Shown: piece by piece, positions 1,095 to 17,622 of the stretch | Numbering within the stretch: position 1 is the stretch's first letter | Layout: each line of letters begins with the position of its first letter | Virus record (IMG/VR): IMGVR_UViG_3300020125_000141 | Location: 1 to 44,158 of that record | DNA length: 44,158 bases | Reading direction: 5' to 3' (one strand) | Origin: a virus | Position numbers and translations under genes: made by a program | The notes under the pieces: generated by a model | What the model was told of the DNA's origin: nothing | Databases searched by the model: none | The model's input: the letters and a program-made list of their open reading frames with translations, nothing else

Positions 1095-1574
1095 TCAGGC
1101 CCTCCCCCGCTTGAATCCCGACGCCGCGGCGATTGCTTCGAACATCTGATCCTTGATGAGTTGCTTCGCCTCTTCCTTCTTCGCGTCACCCGCTGGCCGC
1201 ATGAACGGCTGCGCCGCTTGGTGATACGTCCGTCCCAACCGATCCGTGCCCATGAAGCCGAACTCAATGCGCCGCGCGTAAGGCGGCGAGAATCCGTACT
1301 CGTTCAGGCTGGGATACGCCGGAGACACCACCACAACTTGTTTTTCATCGCGGTCAACTACTTGCGAGAATCCGCCCGAGCTGGACGGCTCAACGTGTAT
1401 GGCATCGCGCAAGCGTCCGGTATCCACCGGAACGAGTACCCGCGCTTCCTCGGCGATGAGTTCGGCGGCCGCCGGAACCGCAAGCCGCAGCTCGCTCACA
1501 GCGGCTTTGACCATGTAGGCCGCGCTGAGCGAAACCTTGTCCATGCCGCGAAGTTGTACAGTGATGAAGCTCAT
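1095..1574 (-). CDS. HK97 gp10-like head-tail joining protein
   Basis: 159 residues. The central pattern, ARVLVPVDTGRLRDAI then a long strand region and a C-terminal helical RPAGDAKKEEAKQLIKDQ, is characteristic of the HK97 gp10 family. The family acts in minor tail or head-tail joining. The ATG at 1574 overlaps the upstream stop in an ATGA, indicating translational coupling. It sits between the head-closure-like gene and the DUF3168 gene, as in many siphophages. Confidence 0.85.
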   Translation of the reverse strand: MSFITVQLRGMDKVSLSAAYMVKAAVSELRLAVPAAAELIAEEARVLVPVDTGRLRDAIHVEPSSSGGFSQVVDRDEKQVVVVSPAYPSLNEYGFSPPYARRIEFGFMGTDRLGRTYHQAAQPFMRPAGDAKKEEAKQLIKDQMFEAIAAASGFKRGRA

Positions 1575-1984
1575 AGGCTGTACAGCCTCAGCGAAAGCCG
1601 CGTCATCTGTTTTTGGCTGTCCGGTTCCACCGTGCCCGGCGTAATCTCGTACAGCGTCCCGTCGACGTTGACCACGAAGCGCATCAGGATCGCCGGATAG
1701 TAGTTGTCCAGCAACAGATGCCACTGCCGAGCTTCGGTGAAGTGATCCGGCAATCTCGCACCGCTCGGGGAAGGATTCAGCATGTGCTCCGGTGCAATCT
1801 GACAGGCGATGTCTTGCAAGCCCGTGACGGGCACCAGCGTCGTCAGGTCCGGCTGCCCCATCGCGTTGACCGAGGGATTCGCGCCTCCCGGCCTGTCGAA
1901 GAAACTGGCCAGCGAAGAGAGCAGCCCCGTCTGCACTGCGTCCGGCATCACCTGATTCAGTTCCGCGAGCAGCGATTGATTCAT
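1571..1984 (-). CDS. Putative head-closure (stopper) protein
   Basis: 137 residues. Its position between the connector-like gene and the gp10-like gene is where SPP1 gp16-type stopper proteins occur. The C-terminal half (PAILMRFVVNVDGTLYEI followed by RLSLRLYSL) looks like the small beta-barrel of that group. The ATG follows the upstream stop by only one base. I infer the function from synteny and general shape, not from a diagnostic motif. Confidence 0.6.
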   Translation of the reverse strand: MNQSLLAELNQVMPDAVQTGLLSSLASFFDRPGGANPSVNAMGQPDLTTLVPVTGLQDIACQIAPEHMLNPSPSGARLPDHFTEARQWHLLLDNYYPAILMRFVVNVDGTLYEITPGTVEPDSQKQMTRLSLRLYSL

Positions 1985-2440
1985 CTACGCCCCGCTCTCG
2001 CGCTGCACAGTCGCCCAGAAGCGATCCCTGAAACTCCAGCCGCCGTCGCGCTGTACTTGCTCGATAATCATGAACGCGCCGGAATTGTCCTCGACGTCCC
2101 GGTACTCTTGCGCCGTTTCGCGCAACTGAATCGCAGCGTCGGAGCTGTCCAGCTTCACGTCCAAGAGTTGCTTGATCGAGGCAAGCCGCGATTTGTTCGC
2201 AGCCAGCGAGTCCAACAAAAGAGCTGCTACCCGCAGGTACGAAACAGGCGTCGACGGAAGATTCCGTCCGGCTGGCCCCGAGTAAAACATCCCGCTCTGA
2301 AACTGCGCTGCCTGGATCTGATACCCGGCCAAAATCTCCGAGTCCTCGAAGACGTGGTTCACGCTCTGAGTGTCGGAGATGAGCAGCCGAATGAAATCGA
2401 TCTGGTTCTGGGAGCCGTCGCAACTGTTGTAGCTGAACAT
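1985..2440 (-). CDS. Putative head-tail connector/adaptor
   Basis: About 151 residues from the ATG at 2440, which begins MFSYNSCDGSQNQIDFIR. Helical connector proteins of the HK97 gp6/SPP1 gp15 type share this style of start (IDFIRLLISDT...DSEIL), long helices and this position just after the capsid gene. An earlier in-frame ATG at 2479 would add 13 residues but gives a poorer N-terminus. It ends one base before the next start. Confidence 0.6.
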   Translation of the reverse strand: MFSYNSCDGSQNQIDFIRLLISDTQSVNHVFEDSEILAGYQIQAAQFQSGMFYSGPAGRNLPSTPVSYLRVAALLLDSLAANKSRLASIKQLLDVKLDSSDAAIQLRETAQEYRDVEDNSGAFMIIEQVQRDGGWSFRDRFWATVQRESGA

Positions 2441-2505
2441 AGAGTAGGAGCGCTGCCACGCCCATCCCCCGCAGAACATTCGTAGCAGCGCTCATTGGGA
2501 GAATC

Positions 2506-3870
2506 CTAAGTGCCCGATCCGTTGGACGCCACGGTTACGCGGCCTTCGATTTGTCCACCGCCGATGACCGAGATGATCTTCAAGTCGGTGTCCATCGTGT
2601 CGAAGTTGCCAAGCATCGGATCGACGCCGCCGCCAGGTCGCATCGTGGTAGGAGCGCGCTGGAAAAGCTGAGGCGTCTCGTAGCCGCTCAAGAAACCGAC
2701 TTCGATAGCGGGCCGCGGTTGAGCGTCGGGCTCAACGAAAATGGCCCACATGGTTTTGCCGATGCTGCCCGAGGTCGCGATCAGCGGAATGTACGGATCG
2801 AGAATCGGGTCCATGCGCTGAACCATCCAAGGCCGGACGTTCAGGATTTGCAACGGATAGGCGTGGCCGGCATCGGCCTGAGTGTTGGGCGAGCCACCCT
2901 GATTCTGTACGAACACGTTCAAACCGTTCATTGCGTTCTGAACGGTGCCTTCGAGTGCCGGGCCGTAGACCAAGCGAAGCCGCCCGGTAATCATGATCGG
3001 ATCACCGCCTGCGTCGCGCTGGGACATCAGGATATTGATCGCGTCGATGAGCCCTTGCGTGGACAGCGGAGGATTATTCGCACTCGCGCCATTCGCGATA
3101 TTGATGATGTTTTTGTACGCCGAGGTGTACAGCGAAGCATGCGGACCATTCGCGTCCACGTAGAGCTTCGTGTAGAACTGATTGATGCCGCGGTTGGCTG
3201 CGAGAGCGAGCCGGTTGGCCCGATCCTTGAAGATGCCGAGGTCATCGTTCACCATCGCCGCCCAGTTCACCGATGCGCCGGCCTGACCGAGCAACGGCTG
3301 ATAGGTGATGGCCGAAGTGTCCTTCGCGTTGGTGATCGAGGCGTTCTTTTGCGGAACGGGCCCGACCATCGCGCGCTGCGGAAACGGTTCGGCGGGATCG
3401 CGATAAGTCAGCGGAGTCACGCCGCCGTCCAACAGGTAGCGCTTGACCACGCGGAAGTCACGCAAGGTGACGTTTTTCGCGATGTTTTTGATGTCCAGCG
3501 GGAAGCCGGTAAAGATCGAGTAGTACGCCCGATCCAACACGTCGACCGTCAGGGCTTGGTAGTCCGTCACGGCCATGGTCTCTTGCAGGGTCACAACGCG
3601 GCCCGGCTGGCTGAAGGCGTTGCCGTACAGCCCTGGATACTTTTCTGCGAGGTAGCGGACGAAAACCTCACGTTGCGGATTCATCGCTTCCTTGATGAGT
3701 TCCGGAGACTCACGCCCGCGGATGACATCAGCATAGAGCCGTGCCGCTTCCTGAACGCGCCGTTCGTGGACGGAGCCCGCTTGCCGGCGTGCGGCAAAGA
3801 ATCCGCGCAACTCGGGGTGGTTCTCAACTGAGCCGCCAGAAAATTCGTGTGTGAATTCCATGTCGCGCAT
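2506..3870 (-). CDS. Major capsid protein (HK97-fold)
   Basis: 454 residues from the ATG at 3870, which has GGAG 9 bases upstream; a TTG at 3885 is in frame but less likely. The N-terminal 70 residues are charged and helical (possible delta-domain). The body has the alternating strand/helix composition and the late GYETPQLFQRAP segment of large capsid proteins that follow a protease/scaffold and a DUF2190-like gene. It forms the icosahedral shell. No Cys pair or crosslink motif was recognised. Position after the protease and before the connectors is strong context. Confidence 0.88.
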   Translation of the reverse strand: MRDMEFTHEFSGGSVENHPELRGFFAARRQAGSVHERRVQEAARLYADVIRGRESPELIKEAMNPQREVFVRYLAEKYPGLYGNAFSQPGRVVTLQETMAVTDYQALTVDVLDRAYYSIFTGFPLDIKNIAKNVTLRDFRVVKRYLLDGGVTPLTYRDPAEPFPQRAMVGPVPQKNASITNAKDTSAITYQPLLGQAGASVNWAAMVNDDLGIFKDRANRLALAANRGINQFYTKLYVDANGPHASLYTSAYKNIINIANGASANNPPLSTQGLIDAINILMSQRDAGGDPIMITGRLRLVYGPALEGTVQNAMNGLNVFVQNQGGSPNTQADAGHAYPLQILNVRPWMVQRMDPILDPYIPLIATSGSIGKTMWAIFVEPDAQPRPAIEVGFLSGYETPQLFQRAPTTMRPGGGVDPMLGNFDTMDTDLKIISVIGGGQIEGRVTVASNGSGT

Positions 3871-3871
3871 T

Positions 3872-4369
3872 TTACTGTTCTCCAATCAGGACGCTGGGCA
3901 AGCCAGTCGTGCCAGTCGTCACGCCCGGATCACTCGGGTCAATCGTGCCGAAGAAAGTGCCGCCCGTGTTCGCGTCCAGCGTGAACCCGGTGGTTACGTT
4001 GGTCGCCGAGTCGAGCGTCCCGCCATCGGCGTACACCTTGTCTCCGGGTTTCAACGTGTGGCCGGTCTGCGGACTGATGACGGTCGCGCCCAGCACGCTG
4101 AGGAAAAACGAGCCGTTCATCAGGAAGACCGCGCCAAGTTCAATCGATTGGTAGTCGTTGAGCGCCACGGCCGGAACGGTTCCGAGTAGAACCGGGTCAC
4201 CAGCCTTAACCGTCGACGGGCAAAGCGCAAAGCGCCGGCTGGTCGGTGTGCCGGTTTTGTCCTGGTTCGTCATTCCGAACAGCACCCCGGTCGCAGCGAC
4301 GAACAAAATCGCCAGAACGGTAACGACCAGCGGATGGGAAACGATGAGCAATGCAAGGATCGGAGTCAC
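3872..4369 (-). CDS. Capsid decoration-like protein (DUF2190-like)
   Basis: About 165 residues from a GTG at 4369 with AGGTGG 6 bases upstream, starting right after the protease stop. After a hydrophobic N-terminus the body contains KAGDPVLLG, GSFFLSVLGATV, GDKVYADGGTLD and VTTGFTLDANTGGTFFGT, a pattern I associate with DUF2190 capsid-surface proteins. The gene lies between the protease and the major capsid gene, the standard position for a decoration or stabilisation protein. The roughly 35-residue hydrophobic N-terminus is unusual for that family; if MTNQDKTG is the true start it would be untranslated. Confidence 0.75.
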   Translation of the reverse strand: MTPILALLIVSHPLVVTVLAILFVAATGVLFGMTNQDKTGTPTSRRFALCPSTVKAGDPVLLGTVPAVALNDYQSIELGAVFLMNGSFFLSVLGATVISPQTGHTLKPGDKVYADGGTLDSATNVTTGFTLDANTGGTFFGTIDPSDPGVTTGTTGLPSVLIGEQ

Positions 4370-4370
4370 G

Positions 4371-4868
4371 TTAGGCCACCTGTTCCCTTCCGCCCCGCGC
4401 CGCAACTTTCGCAGCTTCAGGGCTCAAACCGATAGCCTCCCAAGAGTCGGCGGAGGCTTCGCGCAATTGCTTCGCCGCGCGCTTCTCTTCCTTGCGCGCT
4501 TCTTTCAGCTTTTTGCGCTCTTCCTTCGACGGCACGATCTCAATGCCCGTACCCATTCCGGTCACACGGCCCGCGCCGGTCGCAACGCCGATCACGCTGC
4601 CGATGCGCTTGGCTTCGGCTATGACCAACTCGCCGAACTTTGGCACGTCCAGCGCGCCGTCCTTCAGCGGGAGATCGCGCAGCGAGTTCTCCACGATGAG
4701 CTGCTTGGCGGATTCGTGCAACGACACGGTTTTCAGCACACGATTGGCCTCGACCATCGCGTCACCTCGTAGCGCGCGCTGTTGTAGCCCGGCAACCGGA
4801 GCGGTAACCGCGGCCACCGCTTGGGTGACGGCCGTTTCCACCAATTGCTTGATTTCTTCTGCGGTCAT
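4371..4868 (-). CDS. Nested in-frame scaffold protein
   Basis: An ATG at 4868 lies in frame inside the protease gene and is preceded by a near-perfect AGGAGG (4874-4879), the strongest ribosome site in the head module. The product would be 165 residues, MTAEEIKQLVETAV onward, helical and Lys/Glu-rich near the C-terminus. This reproduces the lambda C/Nu3 arrangement, in which the scaffold is the independently translated end of the protease gene. The sequence shows the start signal; its use is inferred. Confidence 0.7.
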   Translation of the reverse strand: MTAEEIKQLVETAVTQAVAAVTAPVAGLQQRALRGDAMVEANRVLKTVSLHESAKQLIVENSLRDLPLKDGALDVPKFGELVIAEAKRIGSVIGVATGAGRVTGMGTGIEIVPSKEERKKLKEARKEEKRAAKQLREASADSWEAIGLSPEAAKVAARGGREQVA

Positions 4869-6068
4869 ATCGACCTCCTGTTGAGTTGCGCCAGAGGCGC
4901 TTTCCGTCAAAATCATTCCCCCGGCCCCGGCCTGGGTTACCACGTCCACACTGGTCGCGTGGGTCAATTCCTTCAGCACCGGAAGGCCATCGCGCTTCTG
5001 TCCGGATTCGGCTATTCCGCTCGCCCGAATCGACATCCCGACGTGGGGGGCTTTCTCTTCAACCATCTGCCCGTGATCGGCGAACACCTTCATCCGTGCG
5101 TACAGGCCCGGCCCCTTGGCGTGGGCTTCGTGGTACGTCGCGCCCGTGGTCAGAACGCCAGCGAGGTTCTTTACGTCGCCCTCGGGCCGCGCCGCTTCCT
5201 CGGCTTGCGTCGGATGGTTCAGATAAACTTGTGTTCCGGCCTTGAAAACATTGGGCCCGTCGCGCTTCAGCACTTCGGATGGGTAGAACGCGCTCGAACC
5301 TTTGCCGGGAGCGATAAGCTTGATCTCGTAATCGGCCCTTGCCTCTTGCAGTACAATGGTTTCCAGAGTTTGCGCCCCTTCCACCAGTACTAACTCCCCA
5401 GAGGTTCCACGTGGAACATTGGCCTCAGTAGTGTCACTACCGCTTTGCCAAGCTTTCGGCAGGTACTTCCCCCAACCCTTTTTCTTTGCAATCCGAATGA
5501 TACTGGCCTTGAGCGCCGCCGTGCCCTTGTTGTCGCTCCCGGCCCTCCCCATAGACCGAACCGCCGCCATAACGTCGCCCGGCTTCAGTATCGGGAAGCT
5601 CTTGCCCTTGCCGGCGAAGTCTCCGGAGCCCGCTGCGTCACGTTCAGCCTTAGAAACGAACCGTTCGGTCAACACCATGCGCCGCATCCACGCCGGCATT
5701 GCCTTGGCTTCCTGCGTTTCCGTGTCGGTCATCCCGGCGTAGTGGTCCGATTCATCGGCCTCTTCGTCGTACACCGTCCGCGGCACCACGTTCAGCGCTT
5801 GATCGTCATCAATCGCGCACGTTCGCTTGCCGTTCACCATGCCGATTTCGTATGGCGCCCGCCACGTCTCGCCGTTGCAGCAGTAGATCACGTCTCCCGA
5901 TTCGCCGTCTCCGATCACATCGCGCACGTAGGCGTACTCGCCGGGAAACATATCGCGGAGTTCGTCTTGGAGTGCCGCACAGGTATCGGAGGCGGTTAAT
6001 TCGAGCGTAGCGGAGGCTTCGCGGATGAGTTGCTTACGGAACGCTTTCTTGTGTTCGGCGGTGAGCAC
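4371..6068 (-). CDS. Prohead protease with C-terminal scaffold domain
   Basis: 565 residues from a GTG at 6068 (no ribosome site evident; an ATG at 5951 is an alternative). Three parts are visible. Residues about 1-210 include a region (AERDAAGSGDFAGKGKSFPI... AALKASIIRIAKKKGW) like that placed before phage proteases. Residues about 215-395 are protease-like, with NHPT and HVGMSIRASG as likely His and Ser active-site neighbourhoods of a serine prohead protease. The C-terminal part is a charged, coiled scaffold with Lys/Glu-rich heptads. The protein should trim the prohead before packaging. Its last 165 residues can also be made separately from a strong internal start (see nested scaffold). 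Confidence 0.8.
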   Translation of the reverse strand: MLTAEHKKAFRKQLIREASATLELTASDTCAALQDELRDMFPGEYAYVRDVIGDGESGDVIYCCNGETWRAPYEIGMVNGKRTCAIDDDQALNVVPRTVYDEEADESDHYAGMTDTETQEAKAMPAWMRRMVLTERFVSKAERDAAGSGDFAGKGKSFPILKPGDVMAAVRSMGRAGSDNKGTAALKASIIRIAKKKGWGKYLPKAWQSGSDTTEANVPRGTSGELVLVEGAQTLETIVLQEARADYEIKLIAPGKGSSAFYPSEVLKRDGPNVFKAGTQVYLNHPTQAEEAARPEGDVKNLAGVLTTGATYHEAHAKGPGLYARMKVFADHGQMVEEKAPHVGMSIRASGIAESGQKRDGLPVLKELTHATSVDVVTQAGAGGMILTESASGATQQEVDMTAEEIKQLVETAVTQAVAAVTAPVAGLQQRALRGDAMVEANRVLKTVSLHESAKQLIVENSLRDLPLKDGALDVPKFGELVIAEAKRIGSVIGVATGAGRVTGMGTGIEIVPSKEERKKLKEARKEEKRAAKQLREASADSWEAIGLSPEAAKVAARGGREQVA

Positions 6069-6073
6069 GTTTT

Positions 6074-6125
6074 GTGCAATCGTTGCACTGAAACCGGAAC
6101 GCTGGCAAATAATTCCATTGGAATT
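6074..6125. promoter_or_regulatory. Two perfect dyads in a divergent control region
   Basis: GTGCAA-TCG-TTGCAC (6074-6088) and AATTCCA-T-TGGAATT (6111-6125) lie between the divergent protease gene (start 6068) and the plus-strand gene starting at 6142. The second dyad ends 3 bases before a TATACT box. Both look like operator sites for dimeric regulators. Neither matches the GCGCAATTGCGC palindrome found elsewhere in this genome. Confidence 0.55.
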
Positions 6126-6128
6126 CGG

Positions 6129-6134
6129 TATACT
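6129..6134 (+). promoter_or_regulatory. -10 box of a leaderless plus-strand promoter
   Basis: TATACT lies 7 bases before the ATG at 6142, so the transcript would begin at or near the start codon. No good -35 hexamer is present at 16-18 bases; instead the dyad at 6111-6125 occupies the spacer, suggesting activation or repression by a bound protein. Confidence 0.5.
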
Positions 6135-6141
6135 GCCCTTG

Positions 6142-6378
6142 ATGCCCGATTGCTCACTTTGCCACGATGAGCCCGCCGCAACCAACCATCGCTGGTGCCT
6201 GAAGTGCAAAAACGCCAACGAAAAGGAACGCCGCCGAATGGTTGTCGAGAGAGCTTATAACCGCGGCGCCGAGACGATGCGCAGCACTGCGGTTGAGACA
6301 TTCGTTCGAATCGGCAGAGGCGGGATGACGGGCTTGACAGCCGCGGAGATTGTCCGTGGGCTGGCGCTAGATCACTGA
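6142..6378 (+). CDS. Small zinc-ribbon-like protein, plus strand
   Basis: 78 residues. Two CxxC pairs (CSLCHDEPAATNHRWCLKC) form a likely zinc site, followed by a basic stretch (KNANEKERRRMVVERAYNRG) and a helical C-terminus. It is the only plus-strand gene in the head module and has its own promoter-like sequence with dyads. Its end overlaps the antisense end of the 6367-6753 gene by a few bases. A DNA-binding regulator is plausible; the family was not recognised. Confidence 0.6.
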   Translation: MPDCSLCHDEPAATNHRWCLKCKNANEKERRRMVVERAYNRGAETMRSTAVETFVRIGRGGMTGLTAAEIVRGLALDH

Positions 6379-6753
6379 GCGTACTGAATAATCAGCGTGT
6401 CGCCGGACTGCACCACGTAGAAGATCGAGTTCAAGCCGTAGCCTGGTGCATTCGCTCCCGGCGTTCCGATGTAGGGATACATTCAGCGAACTTCCTGGAG
6501 GCAACGGAACACCGCGCGACGTACTCACGTTTGAGTCGCCTACTCTTGGACAAGCTGAAATCGCCCCGCTTCCGCAGTTCGTTGTCGTGTTGGTTGCGGG
6601 CGCGATGAAGATGATCCAGCGCGCGCGCTGCGCTGTGGCAGTGACCGCGTGCGCCGCGCCGTCGCCTGAGATCGTCGCCGGTGAGACGACGGGTGTCTGC
6701 GCTTGGAGCACGAATCCGAAAAGCGCGATAACGAAAATCTGGATGGTCTTCAT
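6367..6753 (-). CDS. Sec-exported small protein, probably frameshifted
   Basis: The ATG at 6753 overlaps the upstream stop (ATGA). The N-terminus MKTIQIFVIALFGFVLQAQ is a clear Sec signal peptide. The mature part is Thr/Ala-rich with a probable disulphide pair (NCGSGAISACP). The frame read here ends in an Arg-rich tail unlike the rest. In another frame, 6482-6372 encodes a sensible continuation starting YPYIGTPGANAPGYG and ending in DTLIIQYAQ. A one-base frame change near 6483-6490 would join them, giving about 124 residues. Mutation, assembly error or programmed shift cannot be separated from sequence alone. Confidence 0.55.
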   Translation of the reverse strand: MKTIQIFVIALFGFVLQAQTPVVSPATISGDGAAHAVTATAQRARWIIFIAPATNTTTNCGSGAISACPRVGDSNVSTSRGVPLPPGSSLNVSLHRNAGSECTRLRLELDLLRGAVRRHADYSVRSVI

Positions 6754-7313
6754 AGGAGCCTTTCTAAAACGATGTAGAGATCGTACTGGCCGGTTGCCGA
6801 GTATGTGGTGGCGTAGGTGATGTGCGCACTTCCGTCGTGGTGAATCATCTTGCAACCGGTCACATTAGCCGAAGTTGTGGAGGGAGTTACGGCATTTGCC
6901 GTCAAAGTCACGCTTTGTATTCCGTAACTTACGGCAGATCCGCTTGGAACCCATGTAAACGTAAGTGCATTAACGGCACCCGTGCCGCTTTGACCGCTTG
7001 TCGTCTGAAGTTCATCGCAAATTCGGTATACCCCAGCCGGTGCCTGCACTCCATTGCACAGTAGGTTCGTGGCGGTGATGCTGGCCGATTGACCGGTGAG
7101 CGCCACAGTGGTGCAGATCGTTGGAAGTGTTCCCACCGTCACGGGCGTCACGTTCGATGTCGCCGTGGGCGTGCTGGTCGCATTCGCCCACGTGAACCAC
7201 GCCGGACCAGATACGGCCGTTACCGTCCCGGCGTTGCCCGATCCACCGCTCGGAGGCGTGTATTGAGCTAACGCTAGTCCGCAAGCGAACAGGAGAATCA
7301 GAAGTTTCCGCAT
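6750..7313 (-). CDS. Sec-exported fibre-like protein
   Basis: 187 residues. Sec signal peptide MRKLLILLFACGLALAQ, then GTVTAVSGPAWFTWANATST, a motif style common in phage tail-fibre beta repeats, and a Ser/Thr-rich beta domain with two likely Cys pairs. The true start is the ATG at 7313; upstream in-frame sequence overlaps the minor head gene. It lies 7 bases after the minor head gene stop. Fibre proteins seldom carry signal peptides, so export to the periplasm or cell surface, rather than assembly in the virion, is possible. Confidence 0.65.
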   Translation of the reverse strand: MRKLLILLFACGLALAQYTPPSGGSGNAGTVTAVSGPAWFTWANATSTPTATSNVTPVTVGTLPTICTTVALTGQSASITATNLLCNGVQAPAGVYRICDELQTTSGQSGTGAVNALTFTWVPSGSAVSYGIQSVTLTANAVTPSTTSANVTGCKMIHHDGSAHITYATTYSATGQYDLYIVLERLL

Positions 7314-7320
7314 GAGCGGA

Positions 7321-8436
7321 TTATACACCCTCTGGAACTTGTCGGTATTCCAGTGAGCATCGACAGTTCGGATGCGCCGGAGGTTCCATGTCCCCTGAGT
7401 CGAACGGGCTCTCTTCATCGATGAATCCATCCGCCGCGTTGCCATCGCAAATCTCACACGCATCCGGTTGCACTTGCCAAGACTTTTCCACGGGCCCATT
7501 GCCGCCGCGCCAGATCCCCGCAAACGCGCTCATGCCGTCGTGATAGGCCCGTGAGACTTCGTACTCCGCGATCATCGACGCTCGTTCTGAACTGTGGTCG
7601 GCGTCCGTCCAGTCGATCTCCTGATTCGCCAGCGCCGCCGTGCGTATGGGGTCCGGAAGCCTCGGCAGCGGGTACGCTTTGCGCTTCGCCTCCGTCACGC
7701 TCACACTCACGGGACCCAGTTCCTTCATCGCCTGACGCGCGCCCGCGGTGAATGCCTTAGCTGTTACTTTCGCGTATACCGCATCGAAGGGCGAAGTCGC
7801 GCGCTTGAACCGCCGGCGCACAGCCCGCGCCATCGTCGCGACCAGCGGATCTATCACCCGCGCTTTCGAGGGAATGCCAAGATGTTCGAGCATGGCTATC
7901 GCAATGTCTGCCGCCTCCTGTAAGGGATTCTCTACAGATTTCGGATCTTTTCCCACTAGGTGTGCCGCGAGTTTCGGCGTCACGTACCAGCGGAAACGAT
8001 GCCGCGGCTCCTCTGTCTTCGTCGGATTGGTGTTGATGTACATCACCGCGGAGTGCTCGAAGTCGATGCGATCCGTGATGCCGAACGCCACCGCCGCGAC
8101 AAGCTTTTCAATCAGCGGGCCGTGCGTGACGATGTGGACGGTATCGAATTCGCCGCGCGCTTTGTTGATCGCCGCCCATGCCGCCGATGGATCGCCGTCC
8201 GGGTCCAGCTCTGCCAGGTGAACTATCGGCGTGTCCTTGCGCTGCATTCGCTCGGCGGTCTCGATCGCGCGCTTGAAGGTGCTGGTGATGATGATGTCGG
8301 CTTTGACATTGGCGCGCTTCAGGAACTTGCGCATCACCTTCGTCTGCTTTTTGCCGATCTTGTTTATCGGTCGCTCGGAGTCATCGCGTGGGCCTTCATC
8401 TGTCAAGGCATGACGCTGTATGTACCATTTGGCCAT
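7321..8436 (-). CDS. Minor head protein fused to a SixA-like histidine phosphatase
   Basis: 371 residues with two domains. Residues 1-150 match the histidine phosphatase superfamily, SixA type: R8-H9 in YIQRHA, D-S-ERPI-G-KQ spacing, TSTFKRAIETAERM, and the second catalytic His105 in VHIVTHGP. Residues about 170-371 match phage head-morphogenesis (Mu gpF-like) proteins, ending in a zinc motif with C327, C330, H355, C358 and C360 (PPAHPNCRC). Minor head proteins join the portal region and may enter the host with DNA. The Gly of the usual RHG triad is Ala here, as tolerated in some members. The domains are continuous in one frame. Confidence 0.82.
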   Translation of the reverse strand: MAKWYIQRHALTDEGPRDDSERPINKIGKKQTKVMRKFLKRANVKADIIITSTFKRAIETAERMQRKDTPIVHLAELDPDGDPSAAWAAINKARGEFDTVHIVTHGPLIEKLVAAVAFGITDRIDFEHSAVMYINTNPTKTEEPRHRFRWYVTPKLAAHLVGKDPKSVENPLQEAADIAIAMLEHLGIPSKARVIDPLVATMARAVRRRFKRATSPFDAVYAKVTAKAFTAGARQAMKELGPVSVSVTEAKRKAYPLPRLPDPIRTAALANQEIDWTDADHSSERASMIAEYEVSRAYHDGMSAFAGIWRGGNGPVEKSWQVQPDACEICDGNAADGFIDEESPFDSGDMEPPAHPNCRCSLEYRQVPEGV

Positions 8437-8781
8437 CTAGCGTAGCGGCTTCGTCCTAGGAAGTTGAATCGGCAATAGCTTCAGATCGATCTCGTACTGG
8501 TCAAACCCACTCTGTACATTCATGCTGCTAACGTAGGCGGTAAATTTCCATTCAGTTCCGTTTCCGTCGTCTGCGCGTATGCTCACAGTGGTGTTGGCGG
8601 CCTTGCGGCAGTACATGATCTTCATCAGGTCATTGGGATTTGTGCTCAAGTCGGTGTCTTGAATCTCGACCTTTGGAACTTCGATCAACTTCGCGGTGGC
8701 ATCAGGGACTAGCAGCCCACCAGCAACCGGCACAACTGTAGCGCCGATGCCAAAGTACTTGAGAAAGTCTCTACGTTCCAT
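8437..8781 (-). CDS. Tat-exported protein of unknown function
   Basis: 114 residues. The N-terminus MERRDFLKYFGIGATVVPV is a textbook twin-arginine signal (RRDFLK) followed by a hydrophobic stretch and an AxA-like site. The mature region is beta-rich (SIRADDGNGTEWKFTAYVSSM). It has its own promoter with a GCGCAATTGCGC palindrome, and the -10 box is 8 bases from the ATG. It lies between the KTSC and minor head genes. Tat substrates fold before export, so a periplasmic or surface role during infection, such as exclusion or lysis timing, is possible. No family recognised. Confidence 0.7.
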   Translation of the reverse strand: MERRDFLKYFGIGATVVPVAGGLLVPDATAKLIEVPKVEIQDTDLSTNPNDLMKIMYCRKAANTTVSIRADDGNGTEWKFTAYVSSMNVQSGFDQYEIDLKLLPIQLPRTKPLR

Positions 8782-8789: not shown

Positions 8790-8807
8790 ATAATAGCGCA
8801 ATTGCGC
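8790..8807 (-). promoter_or_regulatory. Palindrome site A and -10 box
   Basis: GCGCAATTGCGC (8796-8807) abuts TATTAT (8790-8795, minus strand), which is 8 bases before the ATG at 8781. Unlike the other copies, the palindrome touches the -10 box rather than covering a -35 box. It lies in a 29-base gap between two genes. Confidence 0.7.
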
Positions 8808-8810: not shown

Positions 8811-9212
8811 TCAGAACACCGCAATCAGCGGGACTGGCGACCAGTGGCGAATGTCTCCAACCTGCTTTGGCTTCCAGGTGCAGCCGCATTCCGGACATTC
8901 CCACGATTCCGCGGTCGCCAGCTTTCCTGCGCTCATGGCCTTGTGGAGATGCTTACCGCAACACGAATCGGGGTCGTAGGTCTGGAGCGCAAACTGATCG
9001 GCGGATACCTCATGCATCCGTGCCAGCCGACCGTTCGCAAGATGCCGCGCTACAAACGTGCCTTTGCTCGGAGCGTTGAGCAGCGCCAAATACAAATCGT
9101 AGGAGATATCCGCCCACTCGTACAGCTTGCCGTCTCGGAACTCCACTCGCAGCGTTGTGCCTTCGTGGCCGATACGCGCGACATTCGAGGATTGAACTGC
9201 GACCATCAGCAT
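8811..9212 (-). CDS. KTSC-domain protein with Cys-rich C-terminus
   Basis: 133 residues. The first about 65 residues (AVQSSNVARIGHEGTTLRVEF, DGKLYEWADIS, LLNAPSKGTFVARHL) fit the KTSC domain, a small beta fold often encoded near phage head genes. The C-terminal half has CC and CPECGCTW, a possible zinc ribbon, ending in a SPVPL segment. The start overlaps the portal stop (TAATG). Role unknown. Confidence 0.75.
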   Translation of the reverse strand: MLMVAVQSSNVARIGHEGTTLRVEFRDGKLYEWADISYDLYLALLNAPSKGTFVARHLANGRLARMHEVSADQFALQTYDPDSCCGKHLHKAMSAGKLATAESWECPECGCTWKPKQVGDIRHWSPVPLIAVF

Positions 9213-11110
9213 TACGCCGCTCCCATCCTAAGCAGCCGCTTGCTCTCTTCAATCAGCCGCTCGATAGCTTTCTTAGTCGCCGCGACAGCTGGACCAGCCG
9301 GAGTAGCTATCGGTACAGGCTCTGGCGCCGGAGGCTCAATCGTGCGGTCGGCTTCGTAGGTGGCCTCGGGATACGCTTCCTCGATTAGTTCGTCGCCATT
9401 CTCCACACCGAGTTGATCGTAGAGCAGCCGGACGCCCGCGCGCTCATCGATACCCACGACGGTACCGGACAGGTTCCCCAGCGTCATTGCTTCGACTGTG
9501 GACTTCACCAGCAACGCCACGTCGCCCTCTACGATGTTCGGGAAGTTTACACGGATCTCAATGTCGGTAGACTTGTCCGGAGTTGCCTCGTACACCCATT
9601 GGCCGTTGGGCTTCTGCTTTCGGCTCGCCTCGCGGATCTGGATGGACTCGATATTGCGCTTCGCCTCTCTGAGCTTCCCTGACGCCGCTTTCCCGCTAAC
9701 GCCCAAAACGTACTCCGCGATGATGAGCAAGTCTTCGCGCCACGCTTCCTGCTTTTCGATGAAGTTCAGCTCGGTCGGCCGATCCAAGCTCGTAGCGGTC
9801 GCCAAGTTCGACGTGTTCATGTCGCTCAAGAAAGTCTCAGGCACACCCACCACCATGCAGCACATAAGCTTGTACTGCCGGACTTCCTCGGGATCTCCAC
9901 CAGCGCCCTTCGTGTTGAACGCTTCGAGCTTAGTGCCTGGTCCGCTGGCGAATGTACCTCCTGCAACCGTCGGCGGGTTCGTATCCCACAGGCTTGATCC
10001 CACGGAAACGTTGGTCTGTAATTGCTGTTTTGCACCTTCCAACGCCTGTTGCCCACCCTTCGTGGTCAACGTCATGGCGATTTGCGCGAGCGCCTGGCGA
10101 ACCGTGAGACATGCTTCAAGGAAGCGTCGTGCAGCTCGCGCCCAGTCCAACGCCGGGTAAACCATCGGACAACCGAACGTCCACTGCGCAACCTCGCCGG
10201 ACTTTCGGTGATGGATGTGGCAGTCCCACATCACTTCAATACCGTTGATCTCCGCTGGCTTTTCGTCAGGATCGTACCCGAGCGCCGGGTAGTATCGCTC
10301 AATCGGTTCTGTGCTCTTGGCTCCCGTCACCGTGTTGAAAACCTTGGCCGTCCAGCAGCGCTTGTAGAACCAGGGTTTCTCCGCGTCTTCAGGGTCGCAC
10401 TCGATATCCTGGATTTCCGTTGCGTCGATCAGCCGGCACTCAACTAAACCCTTGTCCACGGTATCGGCGAACAACGCGAAGAATAAATTGCCGTCGTAAT
10501 ACTTGCGCCGCTCGTGTTTCGCCAGCGCGATCCTTCCTAGCGTCTTGCGGTTCCGCGCGAAAAACTCCTTCAGTACTTCATTGGCGTCCATGTCGGAGCT
10601 GGTCACCTCGACGCCGCGGGCGAACACGTAGGCCGCCGCTACGTCGATGAGCCGGCGGATGATTGGATTCTTGACGTAGTAGAGCCGGGATATCAGGATG
10701 ATTTGCTGGATGCCCCACCGGGAGAACTCCAACCAACTCATGTTGACCTCGCGCCGCCATTCGACGTTTTGCAGCGCCAGCTCGATATCGCCGAACGCGC
10801 CCTGTCCGATCAGAGGAACCGATTCCTTGAGTCCGAGCGCACGGTCACGGATGCGGCCTAACGCCTGTTGCGCCTCGCGGGGCCCAATTGCCTGTCGCCA
10901 CGGACCAGGCCCGCTCATCAGACGCGCCTCGATCCACTCCGCAGCGAAGTCCATATAATCGCCGAATCGATCGCGCTCTTGTTGCTCTGGTAATAGCTTC
11001 AGAAGTAGGCGATTCTCCGCGCGAAGGTCGGAGATGGTGGCCTGTGGGTCGGTTTGAGGTTTGAGGCGATTAACGCACCAGATGAGGAAAGAGAGGATGC
11101 GGCGTTTCAT
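9212..11110 (-). CDS. Portal protein
   Basis: 632 residues from the ATG at 11110 (a GTG one codon earlier is also possible). It forms the dodecameric channel through which DNA is packaged and ejected. Typical features include a helical N-terminus, the wing region with NPIIRRLIDVAAAYVFARGVEV, and the late block ETFLSDMNTSNLATATSLDRPTEL followed by LLYDQLGVENGDELIEE. Position upstream of the minor head protein is standard. Its separation from terminase by about 7 kb of glycan genes is unusual. Confidence 0.9.
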   Translation of the reverse strand: MKRRILSFLIWCVNRLKPQTDPQATISDLRAENRLLLKLLPEQQERDRFGDYMDFAAEWIEARLMSGPGPWRQAIGPREAQQALGRIRDRALGLKESVPLIGQGAFGDIELALQNVEWRREVNMSWLEFSRWGIQQIILISRLYYVKNPIIRRLIDVAAAYVFARGVEVTSSDMDANEVLKEFFARNRKTLGRIALAKHERRKYYDGNLFFALFADTVDKGLVECRLIDATEIQDIECDPEDAEKPWFYKRCWTAKVFNTVTGAKSTEPIERYYPALGYDPDEKPAEINGIEVMWDCHIHHRKSGEVAQWTFGCPMVYPALDWARAARRFLEACLTVRQALAQIAMTLTTKGGQQALEGAKQQLQTNVSVGSSLWDTNPPTVAGGTFASGPGTKLEAFNTKGAGGDPEEVRQYKLMCCMVVGVPETFLSDMNTSNLATATSLDRPTELNFIEKQEAWREDLLIIAEYVLGVSGKAASGKLREAKRNIESIQIREASRKQKPNGQWVYEATPDKSTDIEIRVNFPNIVEGDVALLVKSTVEAMTLGNLSGTVVGIDERAGVRLLYDQLGVENGDELIEEAYPEATYEADRTIEPPAPEPVPIATPAGPAVAATKKAIERLIEESKRLLRMGAA

Positions 11111-11131
11111 CACGCCAAGCTTATCACTGAT

Positions 11132-11599
11132 TTAGGGCGTGCGCACCCATCGCTGCTTTTTGCTGCACTTCTGATCCCTCCGCCCCTCCCTCGATTTCCA
11201 GCCGTAGCCCCAGACTTCTTTGGTCATGCCGAATCGCGCCCAGCCGTCCGCGTCGTAGATCGTGCCTTTGTGCCCTTCGGTCGGGTCGCTGTAGGAGAGC
11301 AGCAACCGGATTCCAGGAAGCCAAGTACGGACATAACGCCGCATCATCGCGAGGCCGTGACTCTCGGTGTTCTTTGGCGCTTCATCCACGAAGTACACGC
11401 GATGCAATTGCAAAATGATATCGGCGTCGTATTCTTTCGGTGCGGGCCGTCCAAGCAACATCGCGCCCACAAGCTCGCGGCCCTCGGTGAACTCAAGCAC
11501 GAAGATGAAGCCAGGCGGACAGGATTGCAGGTAGTGGTGCATGGCGATCCACTTCGAGGTAGCACGCGACTCTGAAGGCTGGCAGCGACGGATGTTCAT
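11132..11599 (-). CDS. Mom-like DNA-modification acyltransferase (GNAT fold)
   Basis: 155 residues. Diagnostic blocks are HHYL (21-24), GAMLLGRPAP (45-54), HRVYFVDEAPKNTES (66-80) and LLSYSDPTEGHKGTIYDADGW (100-120), with the R-V-DEAP-N and SY-DP-GH-G-IY patterns of Mom-family proteins. In phage Mu, Mom modifies adenines in DNA and blocks host restriction. The ATG overlaps the upstream glycosyltransferase stop (ATGA), making it the last gene of the cassette before the portal. A more general GNAT function is the alternative. Confidence 0.75.
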   Translation of the reverse strand: MNIRRCQPSESRATSKWIAMHHYLQSCPPGFIFVLEFTEGRELVGAMLLGRPAPKEYDADIILQLHRVYFVDEAPKNTESHGLAMMRRYVRTWLPGIRLLLSYSDPTEGHKGTIYDADGWARFGMTKEVWGYGWKSREGRRDQKCSKKQRWVRTP

Positions 11600-12474
11600 A
11601 CAACTCCGAACAGATCTAGCCCAGCGAACTTCTCGCGCCCGTGCTCAGCTACCAGCCGCCTGCATTCCGCTTCCTGCCACAATTCAGCATCCAGGTGCAG
11701 ATGCTTATTCGCAAGCTCCATGTATGGCGCCCACCACTCTATCGGCACTTGCGCGAAGGTCCACGGCTCACGCGGCTTGATTGCCAGCGAGTAGAGATCG
11801 TCAATCTTTCGCACGTCCTTTTCTGGCCAACGCAAACGCTCGGTGATTTTGTAGTGTGCGTGCTTTGCGATCAGCCTCCGCTCGCTGGCGCCCCACATGT
11901 GCATCACGCCGCCCTGCCCCTGCTGAATCGGTCGATACGGCGTGAGGGTCATTCCTTGCGGCTCACGTTGGTGGAAGGTATCGCCAGCCCAGCGCAAGCG
12001 TGGGTCGTCCGCAAACGCTACCGAGACGATGCGGTTTCCCCAGACGGCGTTTGAGTGATAGCGGTCGATGCCGCCGCGCAAGTTGTACAGCGGAAGTTGG
12101 AGGATTGTTGCTGGCTGGCTGTGTTGCGGAATCTCGCCGCTTGCGCGCACGAGGTAGGGCATCTGCTGAATCAGATTGCCCGTCAGGATCTCATCGGCGT
12201 CGATGATGGCGATGTGGGTCGCGCGATGGTGGCGCGCATAGTCAAGCATCCACTGTCTGTGCTGCATCTCGTCCCATTGAGGCTCCGCGTAAACCGAGAG
12301 GTGAACGCGATCCTCGCCTACTTCTTCGCGAACGGCTTGCGCGATATCCTCGCTCGCATCCGTGCAGGCGTGCAGGAAAACGACAACCTCATCGCACCAC
12401 ATCAGCGCCACGCGCAGCGACAAGCCGAGTACCCAGTCTTCGTTTCGCACCGACATACAGGCGATCAGTTTCAT
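11596..12474 (-). CDS. Glycosyltransferase, family 2-like
   Basis: About 292 residues from the ATG at 12474 (GGAG 8 bases upstream). The N-terminus MKLIACMSVRNEDWVLGLSL and the DxD-type motif IDADE (91-95) are those of GT2-like enzymes that recognise a donor nucleotide sugar and metal. A His/Trp-rich region follows (about 165-215). The acceptor is unknown. It lies between the methyltransferases and the Mom-like gene in a coupled operon. A 9-codon mini-ORF starting at 12500 overlaps its start. Confidence 0.8.
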   Translation of the reverse strand: MKLIACMSVRNEDWVLGLSLRVALMWCDEVVVFLHACTDASEDIAQAVREEVGEDRVHLSVYAEPQWDEMQHRQWMLDYARHHRATHIAIIDADEILTGNLIQQMPYLVRASGEIPQHSQPATILQLPLYNLRGGIDRYHSNAVWGNRIVSVAFADDPRLRWAGDTFHQREPQGMTLTPYRPIQQGQGGVMHMWGASERRLIAKHAHYKITERLRWPEKDVRKIDDLYSLAIKPREPWTFAQVPIEWWAPYMELANKHLHLDAELWQEAECRRLVAEHGREKFAGLDLFGVV

Positions 12475-12496
12475 GCAAAGTTCTCCAACTCGGGGT

Positions 12497-12586
12497 TCAT
12501 GAATGACAGCAGCCTCCAGCCTGCACACACAAAAAGGTCAACAGCAACAGCAACGCGGCCACCAGCACTTGATCGGTGTGCTTCAT
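12497..12586 (-). CDS. 29-residue membrane or lipoprotein-like peptide
   Basis: Starts with an ATGA overlap on the FkbM-like gene stop. The peptide MKHTDQVLVAALLLLLTFLC has a single hydrophobic helix followed by VQAGGCCHS. Its length and Cys content recall small anchor peptides or lysis-type lipoproteins, though the LTFLC pattern is only lipobox-like. The overlap on both sides (next ATG at 12500) argues that it is translated. Confidence 0.5.
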   Translation of the reverse strand: MKHTDQVLVAALLLLLTFLCVQAGGCCHS

Positions 12587-13188
12587 CCGAGCACCGTGTC
12601 CCAGTGGCCGATCCAATCGCCCTGTTTGGTTACCTCGTGCTGGATCACGCGATAGCCCAGCTTGGCGAAGAGATCGGCATAGTAGATTTCGGTTCTGTTT
12701 GGTCCGCTGGGTGTACCGTCGTGAAACTCCACGCTGATCTGCCGCGCGATCCCATAATGATGCTGTGGCCATTTTTCGAGTATCTGGAATTCCGAGCCCT
12801 CGCAGTCCAACTTTATGAGGTCGAAATGAAATACCTGACAGCAGTTCATCAACTCCAAGATGCTGATGCAGTCCACACGTATAATCTTCGCGTCGTAGTA
12901 TGGGCTGTCGTCTTCACGGAGCATGTTGCCCTCTCCTGTCGAATAGCTCGCGTACCACGCCCGTGTGCGAACATCGCCCACCAATGCGTAGCGCAGAAAC
13001 GTGACGTTCGGGTGCTGCATCGGCTCAATCGCCGGGTCCGGGTCCAGCGCGATAACGCGGGCTTTCGGCCTCAGCGCGAGAATGCCGCGGGTGAAATCGA
13101 AGTTGCGGGAGCCGACATCGAGGATAACGGCGCGCTCTGGTAGGAGCGATTCGTCAAACGTGTGGCCGCAGATCGTGGTGAGGTTCAT
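12583..13188 (-). CDS. FkbM-like methyltransferase
   Basis: 201 residues. Rossmann SAM-binding start VILDVGSRNFDFTRG (21-35), an acidic turn VIALDPDP (about 45-52), and FDLIKLDCEGSE (about 121-132), the FkbM signature. These enzymes O-methylate sugars and other hydroxyls. The ATG overlaps the TylF-like stop (ATGA). Substrate unknown; the surrounding glycosyltransferases suggest a glycan. Confidence 0.8.
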   Translation of the reverse strand: MNLTTICGHTFDESLLPERAVILDVGSRNFDFTRGILALRPKARVIALDPDPAIEPMQHPNVTFLRYALVGDVRTRAWYASYSTGEGNMLREDDSPYYDAKIIRVDCISILELMNCCQVFHFDLIKLDCEGSEFQILEKWPQHHYGIARQISVEFHDGTPSGPNRTEIYYADLFAKLGYRVIQHEVTKQGDWIGHWDTVLG

Positions 13189-13823
13189 TTGGTGGGAATC
13201 CTCCAGTACACCGGCGCCGGGACAACCGTTTCCATCACGGCCTTTCGGCATCCGCTGAGGTTCCAGTCGTCTACAATGACCCAGCCGCCCGGCGAGACCA
13301 GCGGGTACAAGTGCTCCATCACCGGCTTGGTGGATTCGTAGAGATCGCCATCGAGACGTAACAGCGCAATGGCGCGAATGTACATCGCTTGACATTCGAC
13401 CGATCCGAGAGCCGCATCGCGAATCGATGTCTTGAACATCCCTGGATGGTAGATCAGCAGCTCATCCGGGATGCCCCAGCGCTTCATGTTGGCCTTCACG
13501 TCCACAAGTGAGCACGCCGATTCGCCGGCCGGTACGCCTTGCAGTTCGTGGTCATGCTCGCCGGCGGCCGGGATGCCTTCAAAGCTATCGAACAGGTGGA
13601 CGCGTGGCATCTCCGCCATCGCGTAATCGTTCACCGTTGCGATGTGGTCCATGATGGCCCGCGCCATGATCGCGCACTGTGCGCCTGCGTAGACTCCGCA
13701 CTCAACGAAGTCTCCGGGCACGCCACGCGCCAGCACCGCCCGTGCGATGTCGTAGGTCGCCTCGAAGGTCTCGGTGTGGCCGAGTCCGGACATGCGCACG
13801 TTGTCAAACCATTCGCGGTTCAT
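13185..13823 (-). CDS. TylF/MycF-like O-methyltransferase
   Basis: 212 residues. Motifs GDFVECGVYAGAQC (SAM loop), VHLFDSFEGIPA, LDGDLYESTKPVMEHLYP and GGWVIVDDW match the macrocin O-methyltransferase family, where paired Asp residues (DGD, DDW) bind metal. It probably methylates a sugar hydroxyl. The ATG shares one base with the upstream stop (TAATG). Confidence 0.87.
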   Translation of the reverse strand: MNREWFDNVRMSGLGHTETFEATYDIARAVLARGVPGDFVECGVYAGAQCAIMARAIMDHIATVNDYAMAEMPRVHLFDSFEGIPAAGEHDHELQGVPAGESACSLVDVKANMKRWGIPDELLIYHPGMFKTSIRDAALGSVECQAMYIRAIALLRLDGDLYESTKPVMEHLYPLVSPGGWVIVDDWNLSGCRKAVMETVVPAPVYWRIPTK

Positions 13824-14608
13824 TAGACATTCCTCCATCGGCTCCCGGCCAGGTCGCTCCGGTCACCAGTGCAATACTCCTGGTGGAAGAGCTGCGGGTA
13901 TTTATCCTCTTCGAGTCCGCAATTCGGCGACACCGGCCAGCCGAACTGACACGCCTCCCGATGCAGCGGTATCCCGTACTTCGAAGCCAGTAGCGTCAAC
14001 ACGCTTTGTTCGTTCGAGTGCCGCGCGAACTCGGGAAACTCCGGCGCATACTTCGATGGCTCCAGGCTCTGACACATCGGATTCACCGAGTATGTGAGCC
14101 ATTCGCACAGGAACTGCCACGCGCGATAGTCCCCAACCTTGAACGTGCTGAATCTTCCGCAAGCATGCCGCGCGTTCCAGTGCTTCTCTTCGTCCAGCCC
14201 CATCGCTACGCAGCAATCGCGCCGGGTGAAGCGCTTGTTCGGATTGCCTTGGGATTCGAAGAGGCAGATGCCATCACGCTCGGCGAATTGGAAGATGGGC
14301 GAGAGGTCGGCAATGGGGTAGGTGTCGGCGTCCACGTACAGGACCGTGTTGTGATGCAGCGCGATGAAAGCCTTGTACCACTCTTCCAGGATTATCATCG
14401 GCTTCCACGCGCACCAGCCGAAACCAAACTTCTTGTCGGTCTCCCATAGGAACGAGTTGAGCTTGCGGAAGTCAGGCACTTTCTCGACCAGCCAGCGGTC
14501 ATCGTAGACGCGCACTTCATCTGCTCCGAACCGTGGACCGTCTCTGACGATGCGCTCGGTTGTCGCGTCATACGCTCGCCCTCCGAAGGTGATGAGGATT
14601 CGGCTCAT
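13823..14608 (-). CDS. Glycosyltransferase with VDADT motif
   Basis: 261 residues from the ATG at 14608. The motif LYVDADTYP (90-98) is a DxD metal/nucleotide-sugar site in the GT8-like or nucleotide-diphospho-sugar transferase style. The flanking FGFGWCAWKP and NEQSVLTLLASKYGIPL are also seen in such enzymes. It probably transfers a hexose; linkage and acceptor are unknown. ATGA overlap with the DUF7694-like gene. Confidence 0.78.
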   Translation of the reverse strand: MSRILITFGGRAYDATTERIVRDGPRFGADEVRVYDDRWLVEKVPDFRKLNSFLWETDKKFGFGWCAWKPMIILEEWYKAFIALHHNTVLYVDADTYPIADLSPIFQFAERDGICLFESQGNPNKRFTRRDCCVAMGLDEEKHWNARHACGRFSTFKVGDYRAWQFLCEWLTYSVNPMCQSLEPSKYAPEFPEFARHSNEQSVLTLLASKYGIPLHREACQFGWPVSPNCGLEEDKYPQLFHQEYCTGDRSDLAGSRWRNV

Positions 14609-14973
14609 ATGGATTTGCCGATCCCGTCCACTTCGGCGCTGAACTCCGGTAGTACTTGCCCGTCCGCTTCGTCCCAACGCGCCCAAAGGTGCAGGCAGTG
14701 ATTGTGGATGTTGACGTACTGTTCGCGAGGCGGCCAGATTGAGTAGGCGTAGCGATCTTCACCGATGAACGCGCGCTTAACCTTCGCCATGTCCTCATGT
14801 GTCGGCGTCCAACTTTTGCGCGATACGCTTACATGGAGCCACGGAAATCCGTTGGCCTTAACCTCGCAATCGACGATCACGCGCAAACCGCCGCCGATCT
14901 CGCGAAGCGCGTAACCGTCGCCCCATGGCTGGATCAGCTCGAAACCTTCTGGGCAGGAGAATTGCCAGTTCAT
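14605..14973 (-). CDS. DUF7694-like protein
   Basis: 122 residues. The pattern WLHVSVSRKSWTPTHEDM, a VKRAFIGEDRYA helix, then YVNIHNHCLHLW resembles DUF7694, small proteins found in phages. Function unknown. It is coupled by ATGA overlaps on both sides in the glycan cassette, so it is expected to be made with the transferases. Confidence 0.65.
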   Translation of the reverse strand: MNWQFSCPEGFELIQPWGDGYALREIGGGLRVIVDCEVKANGFPWLHVSVSRKSWTPTHEDMAKVKRAFIGEDRYAYSIWPPREQYVNIHNHCLHLWARWDEADGQVLPEFSAEVDGIGKSI

Positions 14974-15626
14974 CTTCGCACCAGAACCACGTTCGTCCCA
15001 TTGGCCATCGTCGCGGCATAGCCGCGCGCCGTGGCTGCGCTCAATATCTCGGCAAGCCGGTTGTCATGCTCGCAGCAAATTGCGTGCGGCTCCCACTGCA
15101 GCTCCATCATGCGGAGAAACAGGCCGACCGATACGCCCTCCGCGTCGATATTGATGAAGTCGAAGCCCCCGAACTGATTCGAGATTTGCTCCAGCGTGAT
15201 TGCCGGCGAAAGCATCGTCCCGTAGAAGCCGCCCTTGTCGGCCCACACTTCAAAGTTGCCCTCGTCGCTAGTCGACACCGCATCGTCGGTGACGTGCAAC
15301 TTCACCAAGCCCGCCTCCAGCGAGACGCACGCGCCGATGATCTGCACATCGAAACGGTGTTGGATTGGTGCGGATGGGTTCAGCAAACTGGGGCGGTCCA
15401 CATGTCCGTATTCCTTCACGAGCCCCAGCAGCGGACCCGGCGAAGGCTCGATCAACACTGCGCTCGCCCCCATCTCAATCAGCGCACGACTGTTCGATTT
15501 GTCTGTGGCGTGATACGCTCCGATGTCCAACACGCGATAGTGTCGGCCATGCGCTGGGTCAGGTGCGTACTCATCGAACGCCGCAAGGATAGCGGCCTGC
15601 TCGCCAAATTGCGAATAGTCTGTCAT
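14970..15626 (-). CDS. FkbM-like methyltransferase
   Basis: 218 residues. YRVLDIGAYHATDKSNSRAL is the SAM-binding loop, AVLIEPSPG the acidic turn and FDFINIDAEGVSVG the FkbM-type catalytic region. It is only distantly similar to the second FkbM-like protein of the cassette (12583-13188), so it is not a recent duplicate. It could methylate a sugar or an amino acid side chain. Overlaps its neighbours in ATGA. Confidence 0.8.
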   Translation of the reverse strand: MTDYSQFGEQAAILAAFDEYAPDPAHGRHYRVLDIGAYHATDKSNSRALIEMGASAVLIEPSPGPLLGLVKEYGHVDRPSLLNPSAPIQHRFDVQIIGACVSLEAGLVKLHVTDDAVSTSDEGNFEVWADKGGFYGTMLSPAITLEQISNQFGGFDFINIDAEGVSVGLFLRMMELQWEPHAICCEHDNRLAEILSAATARGYAATMANGTNVVLVRR

Positions 15627-16489: not shown

Positions 16490-16662
16490 TGGTTGGTCCG
16501 TTTTACCGCATCCCAGTCACGCACAAGCTGGGCCATGATTTTCTTGTCGTCAACGTGCATATGCGGCGATTGGCTGAGGTTGAAACAGACATTCGCCATT
16601 TGCGCTCCGACGCGCCGTAACTCAGTAACTTCAGTTGCCAACTCTGCTTTCGTGGCTTTCAT
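16486..16662 (-). CDS. Small helical protein in the glycan operon
   Basis: 58 residues, MKATKAELATEVTELRRVG onward, mostly helical and probably a short coiled coil. The start overlaps the GT2 stop and its stop overlaps the next GT start, both ATGA. No family recognised; perhaps an oligomerisation or adaptor partner. Confidence 0.6.
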   Translation of the reverse strand: MKATKAELATEVTELRRVGAQMANVCFNLSQSPHMHVDDKKIMAQLVRDWDAVKRTNQ

Positions 16663-17510: not shown

Positions 17511-17519
17511 TGCTCTAGG

Positions 17520-17549
17520 AGTGTAGCACCTAAATGCGCAATTGCGCAA
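17520..17549 (-). promoter_or_regulatory. Promoter and palindrome site B (glycan cassette)
   Basis: On the minus strand TTGCGC (17544-17549) is followed by an 18-base spacer and TACACT (17520-17525), 9 bases before the ATG at 17510. The palindrome TGCGCAATTGCGCA (17535-17548) covers the -35 region. A protein bound there would block polymerase. Confidence 0.78.
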
Positions 17550-17622
17550 CCGTACCAAAGACCTAGGACTATTCGGCAAAACGGGCCATTGCGACATCCA
17601 GGAAGACTTGTGAAAATGGATA

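Follow-up and report, generated by a model that had tools for sequence, protein, structure and literature searches.

SixA-type phosphatases form a class of enzymes that take phosphate off the histidines of signalling proteins. A gene in the phage DNA described here appears to join such an enzyme to a minor head protein, which raises the question of what a signalling phosphatase would do in a phage, and in which cell it would do it. The window, by which is meant the whole stretch of 44,158 nucleotides that was analyzed, is a single IMG/VR record, and it is probably a complete circular assembly of about 44 kb because its first and last 127 bases (1-127 and 44032-44158) form an exact repeat.

The fusion gene and its two parts

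The reading frame, strand, coordinates and motifs given for this gene in a preliminary description were all reproduced (Table 1). The gene belongs to the minus-strand head operon, and its position by the portal gene and ahead of the protease and capsid genes is that of MuF genes. Its start codon directly follows the stop of the upstream gene. The N-terminus of that upstream gene (MERRDFLKYFGIGATVVPVAGG) resembles a Tat signal, which is unusual among head genes. A longer reading of the downstream gene has no family match in Pfam or PHROG. TerL is separated from the portal by an island (11132-17687) with a Mom-like DNA modification gene, two glycosyltransferase-like and two methyltransferase-like genes. 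The window also carries a 12-bp palindrome, GCGCAATTGCGC, in six exact copies and one near copy against 0.55 expected, which is possibly an operator. One copy lies immediately upstream of the pair formed by the Tat-like gene and the SixA-MuF gene, and in two relatives (L131 and L132) an exact copy follows the SixA-zinc reading frame.

Table 1. Positions of features in the window and in the corresponding slot of related phages
Feature	Position or phages	Strand	Basis or remarks
SixA-MuF fusion gene	7321..8436	(-)	371 aa; ATG at 8436, stop 7321-7323
SixA-type histidine phosphatase domain, residues 1-160	7957..8436	(-)	Pfam, NCBIfam, AlphaFold2 model, PDB matches
R8-H9, predicted phosphate-binding Arg and nucleophile His (SixA R7/H8)	8410..8415	(-)	alignment to SixA; 19/19 phage domains
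R56, second active-site Arg	8269..8271	(-)	aligned with SixA SPFLRA; invariant 19/19
H105, second active-site His	8122..8124	(-)	aligned with SixA ISHLP; invariant 19/19
MuF-like helical region and C-terminal module, residues 166-371	7324..7941	(-)	Pfam, PHROG, model, BLASTP
Putative zinc module C-x2-C ... H-P-x-C-x-C, residues 327-360	7357..7458	(-)	nearly invariant in alignments of relatives
Portal protein	9212..11113	(-)	PHROG 10963, E=3e-54
KTSC-domain protein	8811..9212	(-)	Pfam KTSC, E=1.9e-12; adjoins slot in many relatives
Small gene directly upstream of SixA-MuF, Tat-like N-terminus	8437..8781	(-)	sequence
Downstream gene, signal-peptide-like start MRKLLILLFACGLALAQ	6750..7313	(-)	sequence
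Head maturation protease, far side of slot	4371..6218	(-)	PHROG 15531, E=1.2e-32
Major capsid protein	2506..3885	(-)	Pfam PF25209, E=4.8e-15
TerL	18054-19421	(-)	head operon
Neck	1095-2495	(-)	head operon
Tape measure	39505-42900		head operon
GCGCAATTGCGC palindrome copies	8796-8807, 13364-13375, 17536-17547, 21051-21062, 33916-33927, 35481-35492, 35745-35756		
SixA-MuF fusion	window, L004, L005, L008, L015, L026, L027, L118, L121, L122, L125		L027 reading frame extends off contig start; L004 and L125 near-copies from different metagenomes
SixA with zinc module inserted before last strand	L029 (6004-6819), L031, L130 (388-1233), L136 (4998-5840), L140		
SixA then zinc module	L131 and identical copies L132-L135, L142		
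SixA alone	L128, L129		42.7 and 44.9 kb records
MuF alone	other relatives		
MuF with circularly permuted phosphatase inside	L013, L018, L024		
Permuted PhoE/CobC-type phosphatase	L013:10964-11578, L018:2812-3438 (also L144), L024:3610-4224, L145:4995-5642		
Intein-like inserts	L006:9960-11792, L017:10904-12571, L021:4174-6102, L024:3058-4926, L121:4998-7022		

As judged from sequence comparison, a complete SixA-type histidine phosphatase domain with intact predicted catalytic residues takes up residues 1-160. Pfam His_Phos_1 (PF00300) matches residues 5-77 (E=1.1e-7, 32.2 bits against a curated cut-off of 21.7), and the NCBIfam sixA profile (TIGR00249) aligns its positions 3-154 of 154 with residues 4-154 (E=6.7e-16) at 58.5 bits, below the equivalog cut-off of 74.5. 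Because this cut-off is missed, the domain is called SixA-type rather than SixA itself, and the identity of its substrate is not secured. Among 60 Acidobacteriota genomes, 54 contain a sixA match (E <= 0.001), of which only 10 are above the equivalog cut-off. The best PDB match by phmmer is E. coli SixA (1ujb, residues 5-154). The AlphaFold2 model of the fusion protein (mean pLDDT 82.7, above 90 throughout residues 1-110 and 60-79 over residues 111-150) matches the same structure with a Z of 20.2 over 150 residues at 2.5 Å, and its N-terminal domain has the predicted minimal fold of about 160 residues, without a cap, as in SixA. Other structural matches include MutT1, in which a histidine phosphatase domain is fused to a nucleotide hydrolase. 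A viral fold library returned giant-virus and phage histidine phosphatases and several MuF or minor-capsid entries; two "minor capsid" matches of 226 and 227 aa, not assignable to one domain, were left out.

The preliminary description had held that R8-H9 and H105 fit a phosphohistidine phosphatase, and had named degeneracy of the domain across homologues as grounds for refutation. In the alignment with SixA, its catalytic residues fall opposite R8-H9, R56 and H105. The R-H pair, the second Arg and the second His are present in all 19 phage SixA domains, so that this refuting condition fails. Only 14 of about 160 positions are invariant in these domains, and they include R8, H9, R56, H105 and H128; by our arithmetic, the chance that all four catalytic residues would be invariant if invariant sites fell randomly is about 4e-5. 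H128 is replaced by Lys in the few bacterial proteins aligned, which may reflect a changed substrate. The SixA domain is under purifying selection: dN/dS (Nei-Gojobori) is 0.10-0.29 in the group of L004, L005, L015 and L125, with the near-identical pair left out, and 0.10-0.37 in more diverged pairs, where the values are rough as synonymous sites are near saturation.

The C-terminal part is, by its sequence, a diverged MuF-like minor head protein. It is filed as diverged because Phage_Mu_F (PF04233) matches residues 282-362 with E=0.0012 and 20.0 bits, below the curated cut-off of 29.6. Several PHROG head-morphogenesis and minor-head profiles match it, a single BLASTP comparison with the MuF protein of a related phage, L003, gives E=2e-18, and the homologues in L003, L006, L007 and L009 pass the Pfam cut-off. 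The helical part is shorter than in fused relatives. About 55 residues at the C-terminus make up a compact module (W...C-x2-C...SGD..PPAHPNCRC), which recurs alone in other relatives and in which the pattern of C327, C330, H355, C358 and C360 constitutes a putative metal site. The gpF-like half with a zinc motif, as proposed earlier, thus stands as a diverged MuF relative with the expected residue pattern, below the family cut-off and with the zinc putative.

Arrangements in related phages and origin of the domain

Relatives were collected from IMG/VR by scans with the portal, the fusion, the SixA domain and the permuted domain described below, and a contig reached by several scans was counted once (e.g. 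L008=L025=L119). The portal and alignments were needed for this, as the whole protein, used as a single sequence in a pattern scan of viral contigs, gave no match. SixA-MuF was found in 11 phages, including the window. The fusion is real and not due to chance, because ten other phages have it in the same gene slot. An assembly artefact is ruled out as well, the 11 contigs coming from many metagenomes.

Eight further phages, which the preliminary description did not cover, have SixA in the same portal-to-protease slot, either alone, with the zinc module inside it or with a C-terminal zinc module. In every phage with both flanks on record, SixA follows the portal/KTSC genes and precedes the protease. 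Neither a MuF nor a zinc module was found anywhere in the 42.7 and 44.9 kb records of L128 and L129, where SixA is alone. In the records examined of the MuF-only relatives, neither His_Phos_1 nor SixA gave a match. Nor was a stand-alone SixA, which would have linked the two halves as a gene-fusion "Rosetta stone", found elsewhere in them. SixA is therefore an accessory domain, not a shared assembly factor. In L029, L130 and L136, the zinc module is nested in the SixA domain directly before its last strand (HWLVTP). This nesting suggests that the module is independent and movable.

The distribution of SixA-MuF requires a single change on the portal and protease trees alike, and none of 500 shuffles gave a value as low; both trees were quick ones, with support of 73 and 94. 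A further tree, which includes 31 bacterial proteins, places the phage SixA domains in one clade (98/92) nested among bacterial SixA, and the MuF-fused domains form one clade (99/98) as well. The bacteria sampled represent two phyla and a few others, from which the donor is not identifiable. The simplest reading of these trees is that a bacterial SixA gene was captured once and later joined to other parts in different ways: an ancestor of this group of uncultivated phages would have taken up the gene in the head slot, between the portal and the head protease, and one branch would then have fused it to MuF.

Possible function and its alternatives

The fusion to a portal-associated head protein suggests that the virion carries the enzyme and passes it into the host along with the DNA. 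The best explanation, to which we assign a probability of about 0.4, is that the protein carries an active SixA-type phosphatase as N-terminal cargo on a portal-associated MuF-like protein, and that this cargo is delivered by the virion and acts on a phosphohistidine protein of the host; activity, virion incorporation, delivery and target are what we infer. The MuF/zinc part would anchor the protein at the portal vertex, in one copy or a few, and the SixA-MuF protein would leave the virion together with the DNA. Once in the host cytoplasm, the phosphatase would strip phosphate from a phosphohistidine protein, such as a PTS-type carrier or an HPt domain, and the dephosphorylation would set the state of a host phosphorelay early in infection. 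The delivery step is based on work on SPP1 gp7 and on proposals for MuF effectors (PMC5576092, PMC5512222). SixA dephosphorylates NPr of the PTS-Ntr, an action on the HPt domain of ArcB has been reported, and H8 is essential (PMC6282199, PMC7948535). More tentatively, the phage clade might deliver a protein-phosphohistidine phosphatase at DNA entry, resetting PTS or phosphorelay signalling, with a slot that has been repeatedly rearranged (free, MuF-fused, zinc module nested). If true, this would be host takeover by removing, not adding, a modification.

The main difficulty for delivery is the free SixA in the same slot of L128 and L129, which counts against the best explanation. As these phages keep SixA in the slot without MuF, tethering to MuF is not required for the SixA role, and the phosphatase may instead be active in the cell that produces the phage. 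Made late with the head genes, the enzyme would act, while heads are assembled, on a phosphoprotein or metabolite of host or phage, and MuF would merely fix its stoichiometry or location. The head-operon position in all cases and the free SixA agree with this proposal, but it does not account for SixA having been joined repeatedly to MuF or the zinc module, in three arrangements, and we regard it as somewhat unlikely. Two further points count against the best explanation: the enzyme is N-terminal to MuF, the reverse of the order in known MuF toxins, and, to our knowledge, the entry of MuF proteins in general into cells is not proven.

Delivery by the virion might also serve a different substrate, a nucleotide or small phospho-metabolite (e.g. 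an immune or alarmone messenger). In favour of this are the small substrates of histidine phosphatases outside SixA, the structural match to MutT1 and the missed equivalog cut-off; against it, sequence, profile and fold each give SixA as the best match. The nucleotide messenger that the preliminary description had allowed for is less favoured given the minimal 160-residue fold without a cap, and such a substrate is improbable. A PADLOC search gave no match, which says little on this point. There is little to recommend a purely structural recruitment, in which the domain is now a part of head assembly and catalysis is irrelevant: the slot itself is structural and the permuted phosphatase in the MuF of other relatives has lost two active-site residues, but the catalytic residues are all kept in 19 of 19 SixA-type domains, and the domain is missing from other phages that share the head module. 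It is very improbable that the gene is an auxiliary metabolic gene for central carbon metabolism. A 2025 review tables sixA among such genes of soil viruses, as not validated, citing Trubl et al. (PMC12713726), whose 2018 main text does not mention sixA (PMC6172770). The head-protein fusion and the fixed head slot speak against a metabolic role, and SixA is a regulatory phosphatase, not an enzyme of carbon metabolism.

Known systems and a second phosphatase in the slot

E. coli SixA (1ujb/1ujc; TIGR00249) resembles the phage domain in sequence and fold over the whole domain, in R7/H8, the second Arg and His, and in its minimal size, whereas the phage domain is fused to MuF, scores below the equivalog cut-off, forms its own clade and has the invariant H128. 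With MuF proteins (PF04233; SPP1 gp7, Mu gpF) the window protein shares the C-terminal conserved region, the portal-adjacent slot and kin that pass the Pfam cut-off, but it is itself below that cut-off, has a shortened helical part and carries an N-terminal enzyme. In MuF polymorphic toxins and polyvalent proteins, MuF is likewise joined to an enzyme that is expected to act in the recipient cell (PMC5576092, PMC5512222). In the toxins, however, the enzyme is C-terminal to MuF, and in the window it precedes MuF. The toxins are borne by temperate phages or prophages; the bacterial-genome pattern scan found no prophage copies of SixA-MuF, and no integrase was seen among the subset of ORFs scanned. 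PHROG 12933, a phage family of unknown function with 197 positions, matches residues 4-64, only part of the domain, and we know of no head fusion for it.

Partial matches to the phosphatase half or the MuF half were found in 50,697 cultured phage records, none covering both, and the fused gene was not found in 84,980 species of bacteria and archaea examined by pattern scan. The open-licence literature (subscription papers being outside its scope) contained no report of a SixA or other histidine phosphatase joined to MuF, or of a circularly permuted histidine phosphatase. Phosphatases are unmentioned in the main texts of PMC5576092 and PMC5512222, and SixA in that of PMC5512222. A search of 396 Acidobacteriota genomes with the portal, meant to trace the host through a provirus, gave one weak match (28%). 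The earlier statement that the fusion has no common phage precedent therefore holds, within these searches, for SixA as cargo, but not for MuF joined to other enzymes, which is established (PMC5512222, PMC5576092), nor for sixA in viral gene lists (PMC12713726). SixA is thus a new cargo on a known type of carrier.

MuF fusions are a recognized, little-tested route for phage proteins into cells. Known partners are ADP-ribosyltransferases, predicted RNases and RelA/SpoT domains, and a signalling eraser like a SixA-type phosphatase would be a new class of MuF cargo. With such a cargo, one active-site mutant would suffice for a direct test of host phosphorelay or PTS control at DNA entry. The fusion also shows that a "sixA" entry in a list of viral genes may belong to a head protein instead of being a metabolic gene.

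Some MuF zinc motifs carry intein-like inserts at one site, between HPNC (or a variant) and the next C; the Pfam intein-splicing match is below cut-off for L006, L017 and L021, and L024 and L121 are called by sequence alone. A second histidine phosphatase, of PhoE/CobC type, is circularly permuted, with the RHG-motif strand at the C-terminal end: query residues 190-201 align with PhoE 4-15 and residues 6-146 with PhoE 17-160. Its fold model is of low confidence (pLDDT 67.5), and its activity is doubtful because the RHG motif now reads QHG and Ser stands in place of the second catalytic His. This permuted phosphatase lies inside MuF in three phages and is free in L145.
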